Shown: piece by piece, positions 15,939 through 19,930 of the stretch
Position numbering within the stretch: the first letter of the stretch is position 1
Layout: every line of letters starts with the position of its first letter
IMG/VR virus record: IMGVR_UViG_3300006735_000336
Span: 1-20,666 of that record
Length of the DNA stretch: 20,666 nucleotides
Strand: one strand, 5' to 3'
Source of the DNA: a virus
Made by a program: the position numbers and the translations under genes
Notes under the pieces: generated by a model
Seen by the model: only the letters and a program-made list of their open reading frames with translations
Told to the model about the DNA's origin: nothing
The model's database searches: none

Positions 15939-16376
15939 ATGGCTTACCGTGGTAAATACAAACCCAAGAATCCAAACAAATATGTTGGTGATCCAACAAA
16001 AATAAATTACCGATCCTTATGGGAAAGAAAGTGTATGCTCACGTTTGATGATAATCCAAACATAATCAAATGGGCATCAGAAGAGATCGCCATACCGTAT
16101 TTATCACCCGTTGATAGAAAGCGTCACAGATATTATCCAGACTTTATGGTTGAACTTAAGAACAAAGAAGGCAAAGTTGAAACAATCATGATTGAAGTAA
16201 AACCAAAAAAACAAACGGAGCCACCAAAGCCTAGAAAAAGAAAATCAGTGACTTATCTCAACGAGGCAAAAACATACGCCATCAATCAGGCAAAGTGGGC
16301 TGCTGCTCAAGCCCTATGTGATCGTAAAGGCTGGACATTCAGAATCATGACGGAGAAAGAAATCTATGGCAAGTAA
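15939..16376 (+). CDS. 4: Head completion protein gp4
   Basis: 145 aa (T4 gp4 is 150). It matches T4 gp4 along its length: MAYRGKYKPKNPNKYVGDPT, KINYRSLWERK, NPNIIKWASEEIAIPYLSP, then KRHRYYPDFMVEL and IMIEVKPKKQTEPPKP, and at the end AINQAKWAAAQALCDRKGWT with FRIMTE. The E...YYPDF...iEvKPK pattern is that of an endonuclease-like (TnsA/PD-(D/E)XK) fold: candidate catalytic residues are Glu in SLWERK, Asp in YYPDF and the Glu/Lys of IEVKPK. In T4, gp4 (also called gp50/65 in older work) completes DNA-filled heads so tails can join. No ribosome-binding site is visible before the ATG. It is the first gene of the rightward operon and overlaps the next gene by 11 bases. Confidence 0.93.
   Translation: MAYRGKYKPKNPNKYVGDPTKINYRSLWERKCMLTFDDNPNIIKWASEEIAIPYLSPVDRKRHRYYPDFMVELKNKEGKVETIMIEVKPKKQTEPPKPRKRKSVTYLNEAKTYAINQAKWAAAQALCDRKGWTFRIMTEKEIYGK
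16098..16105 (-). promoter_or_regulatory. Possible late promoter for leftward operon (GATAAATA)
   Basis: Read leftward, the sequence is GATAAATA, seven of eight bases of the T4 late promoter TATAAATA and a fit to the NATAAATA form described for marine T4-like phages. It lies inside gp4, on the opposite strand, about 180 bases upstream of the gp48-like ATG, so it would give an RNA antisense to the 5' end of gp4. Such a string is expected several times by chance in 20 kb of AT-rich DNA, so support is only moderate. Confidence 0.3.
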
Positions 16377-16970: not shown

Positions 16971-17579
16971 ATGGCAGAAGGATTATCAATCACTAATTTT
17001 CTCTCTTCGTTGAGCAAGCGAGGATACCAACGAGGCAACAAGTATTTTGTTACCTTTCAAACTATCCCTATGACATTTTCCTCTGCGATTAGAAACAATG
17101 GATTTTTGCGAAGAGACTTTAACAGGGAATTCAACTCTCGGGTGCAGTCAGTTGAAGTACCGTCCTTAGCAACTCTAACCTCCGATATCTCAGATCAAAG
17201 TGCGCATGCGTATAAACATGTCTATGGTTTTAATATCAGTGACTCTTTGAGTCTCAGGCTTCTCTCAGATGCATCCAATCGTTTCTATTCAGTGTTCCAA
17301 GATTGGCTTGAACTTACCACAGGTACGGTGAGTGCAGGACAGATTCCATATCGTGATACCCTTGAATGTGACTTGGCGATTATTGGCTTAGATGATCAAG
17401 AAAGGGCGAGACACGGATTCATGGTAAGAAACGCTATCCTAAGTTCGGTGTCAAATGGAAGTTTCGCTGACTCAGATGAGGGTGCAGGGCTTATGTCGTT
17501 CGATGTTGTTTTGAATCCAAGAAGCATGGATAGATTAAACTCAGTGGAAGCAGCGACTATTTTTAGATCAAACATTTAA
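16971..17579 (+). CDS. Tail-tube-fold protein (gp54-like tube initiator or gp19-like tube)
   Basis: 202 aa. The start ITNFLSSLSKRGYQRGNKYF followed by VTFQ matches the N-terminus of T4 gp54/gp19-type tube proteins ('F......R.N.F.v.f'). Further matches are VQSVEVPSLATL at about 58-69, DSLSLRLLSDASNRFYSVFQ with DWLELTTG at about 91-118, then RDTLECDLAIIGLDDQERAR and the end strand MSFDVVLNPRSMDRL; T4 gp54 has SVKMPE, 'ISFRMDSEACNYRAMQDWV' and 'TTFDVTFAYRVM'. It is shorter than gp54 (320 aa) and longer than gp19 (163 aa). The protein should form a ring on the gp48 cap or the tube itself. Gene order (tube, gp26-like, small ORF, tape measure) fits either choice. Confidence 0.75.
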   Translation: MAEGLSITNFLSSLSKRGYQRGNKYFVTFQTIPMTFSSAIRNNGFLRRDFNREFNSRVQSVEVPSLATLTSDISDQSAHAYKHVYGFNISDSLSLRLLSDASNRFYSVFQDWLELTTGTVSAGQIPYRDTLECDLAIIGLDDQERARHGFMVRNAILSSVSNGSFADSDEGAGLMSFDVVLNPRSMDRLNSVEAATIFRSNI

Positions 17580-17593
17580 TATGAAAGGTTATC

Positions 17594-18298
17594 ATGCAAT
17601 TACCAAAAATTAAGACTCCTGAATATGTGATTGAATTACCAATCTCAAAACAAAAAGTAACTTATAGACCCTTCTTAGTCAAAGAAGAAAAAATGTTCAT
17701 GATGCTCAAAGAGGCAAAGGATCAGAACCTTCTCGTAAATAACTTAAAAAAGATTGTTGAGCAATGTATTATTGATGGTCCCAAGATTGATGATATTAGT
17801 TACAACGATTTTGAAATTCTATTTTTGAGCATGAGAGTTAGATCGATGGGTGAGTCTGTTGATCTTTCGCTTAAATGTAAATCTTGTGGAAAGCAATCGC
17901 CCGTGTCAATTAATCTTGATGATGTTTGCGAAACCACTAAAAAGTCAGATATCGGTGAGGCAAGGATTATGCTGAACGAAGAGGTTGGTGTTACTTGCAC
18001 ACCGATCAAGATGTCAAGAATGGGACAGGCTGCCTCGCTCACAGAGAAAGACAATGTAAACTCAGTGGCATTTTTTATTGATAAAGTTTTTACGAAAGAT
18101 CAAATTTATACTTTTTCTGAGATGCCATTCTCCGAGCAAAAGGCTTTTGTTGATTCTTTGAGTATGAAGCACATCACTGAAATCACACAGTATGCTGAAA
18201 AATTACCAACTGCCTCTTGTGAGGTAAACTATACCTGTGCAAGTTGTGGTGCGAAGAATAATCAACTTGTCAAAGGACTGGAGAATTTTTTTATGTAA
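17594..18298 (+). CDS. 26: Baseplate hub assembly protein gp26-like, likely with -1 frameshift extension
   Basis: 234 aa (T4 gp26 is 208), of the T4_baseplate family. Conserved opening: LPKIKTPEYVIELPISKQKV, then TYRPFLVKEEKMFMMLKEAK, and DFEILFLSMRVRSMGESVDL near 72-91. Two CxxC pairs, CKSC at 95-98 and CASC at 215-218, could form a zinc ribbon. In T4, gp26 helps build the gp27-gp5-gp29 hub. AAAGG lies 7 bases before the ATG. The last codons are AAT TTT TTT ATG TAA: seven T's in slippery phase, followed by a 9-bp stem, predict a -1 shift that would replace the last residue with 62 residues of the next frame (295 aa total, ending at 18480). The gp26 call is good; the shift is predicted from sequence only. 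Confidence 0.87.
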   Translation: MQLPKIKTPEYVIELPISKQKVTYRPFLVKEEKMFMMLKEAKDQNLLVNNLKKIVEQCIIDGPKIDDISYNDFEILFLSMRVRSMGESVDLSLKCKSCGKQSPVSINLDDVCETTKKSDIGEARIMLNEEVGVTCTPIKMSRMGQAASLTEKDNVNSVAFFIDKVFTKDQIYTFSEMPFSEQKAFVDSLSMKHITEITQYAEKLPTASCEVNYTCASCGAKNNQLVKGLENFFM

Positions 18299-18331
18299 GC
18301 ATGTGTCATGATAACCTTGAGGGACACATGC
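18286..18331 (+). other. Predicted -1 programmed ribosomal frameshift signal
   Basis: Three parts are visible. The slippery site is seven T's at 18286-18292, in phase as T TTT TTT with the gp26 codons, so both tRNAs can re-pair perfectly after a -1 slip. The spacer is 6 bases (ATGTAA, 18293-18298) and holds the gp26 stop codon. The stem is GCATGTGTC (18299-18307) paired with GACACATGC (18323-18331), nine perfect pairs, with a 15-base loop that could add a small CC/GG helix. The -1 frame is open from 18262 to the TAG at 18478. The stem also buries the ATG at 18328, the best independent start of the small ORF. No feasible pseudoknot was found. Confidence 0.65.
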
Positions 18332-18480
18332 GTTCAAACTACATACTTTGCACAAGAATGAATATGAGTTTGGGTGATATTGAAGATTTACTCCCTTGGG
18401 AGAAAACAACTTACTTCTACATGATTATGGAGCAACTAAAACAAGAACAGGAAGGTTTTAAGCGAAGTGGCAGATCCTAG
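18328..18480 (+). CDS. Small ORF after gp26: gp51-position peptide / frameshift extension
   Basis: 50 aa if started at ATG 18328 (GAGGGA lies 3 bases upstream), 59 aa from ATG 18301, or the last 62 residues of a gp26 fusion if read by -1 frameshift. The sequence RSNYILCTRMNMSLGDIEDL, LPWEKTTYFYMIMEQLKQEQ looks conserved in type: a short helical peptide with 'LPWEk..Yf.mi...L..E', like the C-terminal part of GT-type tail chaperones or small T4-like proteins that follow gp26. T4 has gene 51 (hub assembly catalyst, 249 aa) at this place, but the length differs greatly. It overlaps the tape-measure candidate by 14 bases. It is likely a real coding region; the mode of expression is uncertain. Confidence 0.7.
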   Translation: MRSNYILCTRMNMSLGDIEDLLPWEKTTYFYMIMEQLKQEQEGFKRSGRS

Positions 18481-19930
18481 TGATAACAGTTTCATCGGAC
18501 CAAGACCAATAGCAGGTCCATCACCAGTTCCGACTGGTGGTGCTGATGTCCCATTCCGTGAGATTGTTGAGGCTTTGCAGGCTGAACAGTCACAAGAAGA
18601 AAACATCCTACAGATTAGAGATAATGTTACTACTGACATTGTTCCAGATTTAAATGAACTTGTATCTTTAAATAAAACTTCATCACGCGACTTGCTGGAA
18701 GCAGAAGAGGAGCGTGCCGAAGAGGTAAAAGACGTTGAAAAAACTTTGTTTGATAAACTTGGTGATAGGATTACGGGTGCGATTGACCTCGTAAGAAACA
18801 CCATTCCCAGTCCTCTTAGTATTGCCTTTGCAAACAGAATGGCTGATGTGTTATCTGTGCTTGGCTTGGCTGCTATTCCTGCCATATTAATAAGAGGATT
18901 CAAAATTGATAAAGAGATTGCAGCCATCGGAACAACATTATTTGCTATTAATAGAGGTTTGTTTCAAAGTGTTTTTACGATTCCAAAAATTTTGACTGGT
19001 TTGGCTCGAAGCACCCAAGCCTTCTTTACCGGGACAAAACTTGCCTCGATAGGACCGAGTATTGTTAAAGCAGTTCAAGCAGCAACATTATTTTTTGCAG
19101 AATCTCCAAGAATTCTTCGTGGTGTCGAAATACTCGTTAATTCGTTTATTGCCGTGAAAAATTTTGCTATCAGCACGGGGTCTTTACTTCAAAAAATTGT
19201 CACACCAGTTCTCAAGTTTCTTGGTTTTGCGGGCGGTATCTTTAAAACAATCATGCCCTTCTTTAAAGTAGTGTCAGGAATCTTGGGAAAAATTTTCATA
19301 CCTATCACAGTAGTGCTTGGCATCATCCAAGGATTGTCTGACTACTTTAGGGCTGGTGGACAGGCAGGAATCGGAGGACTTCTCACATCGGTTGTTGGAG
19401 GTCTTTTAGAATCTTTTACTTTTGGTCTTTTAGACATTGAAAGAATTTTTGGTTTCTTTGATTTGATTGCGACAAGCGTGCGGAAGGCAGTAAATTATTT
19501 ACTTTTTGATTTTACGCGGGCAACAGAACTTGAAAGAGAGTTCCAAATCAGGAAAGAGGAACGAGAGAGAAAAAGAGCAGATCGACTTGCCTTGAGAGAG
19601 GGCAAGGCGACTAGAGAAACAATCAAAGAGGCATCCGAGCAAGAACTTGAGTCAACTGATATTTTTGCAACCTTGAGTAAAGAACTTGATGAAGTTTTGA
19701 GTTTGATTTCAAATTCAAACACCGGGCTAAGAGATACGATGCTTGAGAATAGTGCGCAAACAAATGGTTTGATCGCAAATTCAGTTGCGGCAAATGCTCA
19801 GGCTCTTGCCACTCAGGGAGTAGTGAGCGGTAGTAGAGGCGGTGGTAGAGATGTCCCAACTCCCGCTCCGACAGTTGACCCTTACAATAGGGCAGGCGGA
19901 CGCGATACTCCGGGTGGACCAAGAAACTAA
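18467..19930 (+). CDS. Putative tail tape-measure / hub protein (gp29-position)
   Basis: 487 aa, starting with GTG at 18467 with AGGAAGG about 11 bases upstream; no closer ATG exists. Architecture: Pro-rich start, a charged helical region at about 30-100 (EIVEALQAEQSQEENILQIR, then EAEEERAEEVKDVEKTLFDK), hydrophobic helices at about 125-145 (VLSVLGLAAIPAILIRGF) and 250-345 (GILGKIFIPITVVLGIIQGL, then LTSVVGGLLESFTFGLLDIE), a basic coiled-coil at 350-395 and a Gly/Pro tail. This is the usual look of phage tape measures, which fill the tube and fix its length. T4 gp29 is 590 aa and also follows gp26/51 at a distance. The place just after the gp26/small-ORF pair supports the call; I see no direct gp29 signature. 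It ends 8 bases before a terminator. Confidence 0.6.
   Translation: MADPSDNSFIGPRPIAGPSPVPTGGADVPFREIVEALQAEQSQEENILQIRDNVTTDIVPDLNELVSLNKTSSRDLLEAEEERAEEVKDVEKTLFDKLGDRITGAIDLVRNTIPSPLSIAFANRMADVLSVLGLAAIPAILIRGFKIDKEIAAIGTTLFAINRGLFQSVFTIPKILTGLARSTQAFFTGTKLASIGPSIVKAVQAATLFFAESPRILRGVEILVNSFIAVKNFAISTGSLLQKIVTPVLKFLGFAGGIFKTIMPFFKVVSGILGKIFIPITVVLGIIQGLSDYFRAGGQAGIGGLLTSVVGGLLESFTFGLLDIERIFGFFDLIATSVRKAVNYLLFDFTRATELEREFQIRKEERERKRADRLALREGKATRETIKEASEQELESTDIFATLSKELDEVLSLISNSNTGLRDTMLENSAQTNGLIANSVAANAQALATQGVVSGSRGGGRDVPTPAPTVDPYNRAGGRDTPGGPRN

Follow-up and report, generated by a model that had tools for sequence, protein, structure and literature searches.

A conserved -1 frameshift signal between gp26 and gp51 of T4-like phages predicts short and long tail assembly chaperones from one gene

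The viral DNA analyzed here, from a marine T4-like phage, is a single stretch of 20,666 nt (hereafter the window), and the genes of interest all lie on its + strand. A tail-tube-like gene (16971-17579, 202 aa; phrog_45 tail tube, E 4.1e-12) is directly upstream of a gp26 homologue (17594-18298, 234 aa), the candidate short tail assembly chaperone (TAC-N). The homologue matches Pfam family PF12322 with E 1.6e-46 and 159.2 bits, against a curated cutoff of 24.5, as well as phrog_150 (baseplate hub, E 1.2e-47); it is the only gp26 match in the 20.7-kb record, which is a fragment of a genome. In the -1 frame, the end of gp26 is continued by an extension of 62 codons and a stop (18292-18480). An earlier note on this DNA had described the extension as an anonymous small ORF; the ORF is present, but it can be given a name, as residues 3-56 match phrog_634 (baseplate hub assembly catalyst, E 2.9e-13) and identify it as gp51, a putative T-like domain. 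Some distance upstream of these genes, positions 15939-16376 encode a head-completion-like protein of the gp4 type (phrog_218 head closure) whose N-terminal domain resembles TnsA endonuclease (PF08722, E 3.7e-25).

The gene that follows (18467-19930, 487 aa, GTG start) overlaps the end of gp51 and is tape-measure-like. Its own match to phrog_16051 is weak (E 0.17), so that this gene, taken by itself, is only weakly identified as the tape measure; in some relatives, ORFs at the same position match TMP families in profile searches with E values down to 3.4e-11. Among the relatives (loci L182, L110 and L005) the gene after gp51 is variable, with lysozyme, transglycosylase or metallopeptidase domains in some and tape-measure-like matches in others. 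The gp26/gp51 pair thus has a tail-tube gene on one side and a tape-measure-like gene on the other, which is where G/GT-type chaperone genes are expected.

The junction itself contains the parts of a -1 frameshift site, which the earlier note had proposed and which can be located as follows. Seven Ts at 18286-18292 are read AAT TTT TTT ATG TAA in the gp26 ORF, and the heptamer T_TTT_TTT is therefore in the correct X_XXY_YYZ phase. A 6-nt spacer (ATGTAA, 18293-18298) includes the gp26 stop at 18296-18298, and next comes a putative stimulatory hairpin (18299-18331) with a 15-nt loop, in which the stem arms at 18299-18307 (GCATGTGTC) and 18323-18331 (GACACATGC) pair fully over 9 bp, as described. 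From the slip site, the -1 frame runs without a stop codon as far as the TAG at 18478-18480, in agreement with the proposed fusion of 295 aa (233 + 62), and the predicted peptide across the gp26/gp51 junction is GLENFFYVSMCHDNLEGHMR. All of these coordinates stand, but a further part had been missed: a Shine-Dalgarno (SD)-like AAAGGA at 18272-18277, an inferred stimulator, whose AGGA begins 12 nt 5' of the heptamer. Similarly, the ATG at 18328 does lie in the stem, as had been claimed, but the small ORF has an earlier ATG, its first, at 18301, likewise within the stem. A second role for the hairpin in curbing independent initiation, as the note suggested, is a possibility.

When folded, the 80 nt 3' of the heptamer give -18.8 kcal/mol (z -1.71), and 12 of 200 shuffled sequences are equally stable; the hairpin of the window alone is only moderately better than chance. 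Three near relatives come from other contigs: two (L001 and L002) do not differ from the window over the stretch compared, and the third (L003) has diverged. All three, like the window, have seven Ts in the run, which makes a homopolymer sequencing error unlikely and bears out the run length that the earlier note wanted checked. The stem arms of L003 are identical to those of the window, with one change in the loop, so that covariation is absent from the window stem, for which there is this one diverged near relative. A search for further close relatives yielded only these three via gp26 and none useful for covariation via the downstream protein. Nucleotide conservation in gp51 is unusually strong in this pair, with 3 of 182 nt differing between the window and L003 in 18299-18480 and 51 of 705 in gp26.

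For a wider comparison, 254 distinct gp26/gp51 junctions were collected from Kyanoviridae, Emmerichvirinae, and rhizobial and uncultured phages. Loci were gathered with an N-terminal gp26 motif, supplemented with GenBank phages, so the sampling hardly depends on the junction itself; a first single-protein scan with several gp26 peptides as queries had added only the three near relatives. The T4 clade, in which gp26 and gp51 are two divergent genes, is outside this sample. Grouping at 80% nucleotide identity gives 200 clusters. A T_TTT_TTN heptamer in the -1 phase, 7-31 nt 5' of the gp26 stop, is found in 253 of the 254 junctions (172 TTTTTTC, 77 TTTTTTT, 3 TTTTTTA and 1 TTTTTTG) and begins at stop-10 nt in 205 of them, whereas an in-phase heptamer is present in only 1.0% of the 60-nt stretches taken from elsewhere in these genes. 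TTTTTTC at stop-10 was also found in the KVP40-like phage V09 and in Citrobacter phage Ci1, which were checked separately. It is because of this conservation, and not because of the fold of the window's hairpin, that the signal exceeds chance.

Beyond the heptamer, the -1 frame continues for 53-75 codons before a stop in each of the 245 complete junctions, compared with a median of 5 codons in the +1 frame. In 87 junctions there is no ATG, GTG or TTG within its first 11 codons. Past the gp26 stop, these start-less junctions differ at 23, 16 and 94 sites in -1-frame positions 1, 2 and 3, respectively (43 comparable pairs, which are not independent of one another). Change biased to the third position, with no start codon within reach, indicates that the stretch is translated and under coding selection; judging from these sequences, only a frameshift or a non-standard start would reach such codons. 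In Vibrio phage VmeM-32 (L011, 3705-3884) and Aeromonas phage AS-zj (L015, 3690-3857), the T-like domain is present in the -1 frame with no gp51 gene annotated, and the first start codon of the VmeM-32 frame is at codon 16.

These observations bear on whether gp51 might instead be a separate small gene, translated by termination and reinitiation at the ATG at 18301. That ATG comes 3 nt after the TAA, an arrangement also seen in S-PM2, and several cyanophages have gp51 annotated as a gene of its own in GenBank. However, the ATG at 18301 lies within the stem and has no SD sequence at normal spacing; the 87 junctions without an early start codon still show protein-level conservation of the codons concerned; the unannotated gp51 of VmeM-32 and AS-zj, with the late start codon of the former, does not fit a separate gene; and the in-phase T run in nearly every junction would be left unexplained. 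We therefore regard reinitiation as an unlikely substitute for frameshifting, while the data leave room for some free gp51 made from the ATG at 18301 in addition to the fusion.

Frameshifting in bacteria may be stimulated by sequences on both sides of the slip site; the E. coli dnaX-type -1 signal consists of an SD-like element, a slippery heptamer and a hairpin. The junctions studied here have, as a family, the same three parts, with a T-rich heptamer in place of A_AAA_AAG. In 135 of the 200 clusters an SD-like 4-mer lies between -15 and -12 relative to the heptamer, against a background of 11%, and the element of the family is GAGGGA/AAGGA, about 12-15 nt 5' of the heptamer. Codon choice at this position is skewed accordingly: GAG:GAA for Glu is 84:37, compared with 1214:3388 elsewhere, and Gly codons favor GGA and GGG. 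RNA structure, measured against shuffled sequences, peaks on the 3' side, in the 50-nt segment that begins where the heptamer ends (mean z -1.28); an overlapping segment from -15 has z -0.70, and all others are at -0.60 or weaker. The dip persists when the amino acids are held fixed (z -1.49, versus about 0 to -0.5 further downstream), which points to selection on structure at the level of the family, the value for the window being moderate. Stimulators vary among the clusters, about a third of which have no SD-like element, and z is below -1.5 in under half.

Further evidence for a stem comes from a sister group in which one pair is U-A in 18 sequences, G-C in 7 and A-U in 5, a three-way compensation in which the 5' change is synonymous and the 3' change alters an amino acid. 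The covariation score of this group, 0.161, is reached by 0 of 500 shuffles, and slid controls score 0.003-0.068; no convincing covariation was found in a second sister group (B). In sum, the comparison with homologues proposed in the earlier note finds heptamer, phase and local structure retained in the relatives, and one sister group shows compensatory change; together with the seven-T run, this favors a -1 frameshift.

The frames could also be joined by RNA polymerase slipping on the T run, rather than by the ribosome, and the run of seven in the window could be cited for this. A run of six Ts is short for transcriptional slippage, however, and 172 of the 253 heptamers are TTTTTTC, with six; in addition, polymerase slippage would leave the SD-like element, the hairpin and the strict codon phase unexplained. 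We consider it very improbable.

Protein sequence could in principle account for the T run as well, since a Phe pair at the end of gp26 is conserved and TTT is the commoner Phe codon overall (TTT:TTC 1636:649). The first slip codon is TTT in 200 of 200 clusters and the preceding codon ends in T in 200 of 200, whereas the invariant Phe27 of gp26 is TTT in only 128 of 200; thus, protein constraint alone is insufficient. A naive codon-usage probability for the slip codons is about 1e-71, a figure that takes no account of relatedness and means no more than 'very small'. That the run is a by-product of Phe-Phe in AT-rich genomes, with an accidental -1 frame, has almost no probability left: a conserved domain is encoded in that frame, and relatives with TTC TTC or without a T before the Phe pair that retain an intact, start-less -1 gp51 number none among the 253, the nearest to such relatives being Ackermannviridae, which may use another site.

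Comparison with phage T4 suggests what the two products would correspond to. T4 gp26 and gp51 are hub assembly chaperones; as in the window, T4 gp26 belongs to the PF12322 family and T4 gp51 ends in the same C-terminal domain. By contrast with the window, the two T4 genes stand apart in divergent orientation and lack a frameshift site. In profile searches, residues 1-201 of T4 gp51 match PF12322 and residues 147-246 match phrog_634, and the -1 extension of the window can be aligned with the C-terminal end of the protein. T4 gp51 is thus a gp26-like body followed by the same C-terminal domain, so that the gp26-gp51 fusion would be its equivalent; by homology, gp26 alone is the predicted counterpart of T4 gp26 and the fusion that of T4 gp51. 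The gp51 proteins of cyanophages and marine vibriophages have been described as lacking the first ~200 residues of T4 gp51 (PMC3037559), and they would be short because gp26 supplies the missing N-terminal part through the frameshift.

The Ackermannviridae (loci L316, which is SFP10 2229-2470, L320, L317 and L016) also encode a gp51-like domain beyond gp26, again in the -1 frame. At the end of their gp26 there is no T_TTT_TTN; the sequence (A/C)TTT(T)C_A is found instead. In SFP10 and the Taipeivirus among these loci, no gene is annotated at the gp51-like domain and the frame lacks an early start codon. The pattern suggests that Ackermannviridae use a non-standard -1 site. On balance we lean slightly toward a history in which frameshifting with SD-like element, T_TTT_TTN and hairpin is the usual, possibly ancestral, route to the long chaperone outside the T4 clade, the split into genes 26 and 51 in T4 is derived, and the Ackermannviridae retain the -1 arrangement with another slip site that looks weaker.

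Tail assembly chaperones made by -1 frameshifting, including gpG/gpGT of phage lambda, were reportedly described by Xu, Hendrix and Duda in 2004. The gp26/gp51 locus resembles gpG/gpGT in that one gene, with a -1 slip near its 3' end and a location between tail tube and tape measure genes, would give short and long forms; as in G/GT pairs, there is an in-phase heptamer close to where the short ORF ends, and the -1 frame is open. It differs in its protein sequences (PF12322/phrog_634) and in its T_TTT_TTN slip site with hairpin and SD-like element. An AlphaFold2 model of gp26 (mean pLDDT 89.9) had no match in the PDB at E<=0.001; the HK97 TAC (2ob9) was at rank 15 (E 3.1, prob 0.15).

According to a 2016 review (PMC5009743), lambda-type TAC frameshifting is widespread, 'except T4'. 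The TAC genes of T4-like phages were since identified by Vladimirov, Gautam and Davidson (2022, Virology 566:9-15); going by its title and by papers that cite it, that work concerns the same genes, gp26 and gp51, with a title that emphasizes a mechanism other than frameshifting. It is cited for T4-like phages using two genes in the PRFect paper (PMC10885494), and in PMC12846349 for -1 slippery signals of the poly-T type in the TAC genes of T4-like phages. Going by these citations, the earlier note was mistaken in knowing of no such frameshift for T4-like gp26, and its doubt about precedent is answered by the identification of gp26/gp51 as T4-like tail assembly chaperones. PMC12846349 itself deals with other phage families, Vandenendeviridae/Andersonviridae, in which the TAC of phage Adele likewise has a conserved poly-T -1 site (there GTTTTT), an unannotated C-terminal domain and a position upstream of the tape measure gene. 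Our literature search for a description of a gp26/gp51 frameshift in cyanophages found none beyond the papers citing Vladimirov et al. As far as seen, the additions made here are the extent of conservation, the SD-like element, the evidence for structure and the explanation of gp51 length, some of which may be contained in Vladimirov et al.

Taken together, it is very probable that one gene gives rise by -1 frameshifting to short and long tail assembly chaperones of the G/GT type, gp26 and gp26-gp51. In the mechanism that we infer, efficiency and protein roles included, most ribosomes would terminate at 18296 to give gp26, the short, G-like form, and a minority would slip by -1 on the heptamer and read to 18480, giving the 295-aa, GT-like form. 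Slippage would be aided by the SD-like element upstream and the hairpin downstream. If the roles parallel those of lambda gpG/gpGT, the short form would coat the tape measure protein, and the C-terminal domain of the long form would recruit tail tube subunits.

Such frameshifting would provide a translation mechanism for a pair of core genes in marine T4-like phages, an abundant group in which gp26 and gp51 are usually annotated as two genes or the second is absent. The signal, kept in hundreds of relatives, would also account for gene 51 of these phages looking shortened compared with that of T4.
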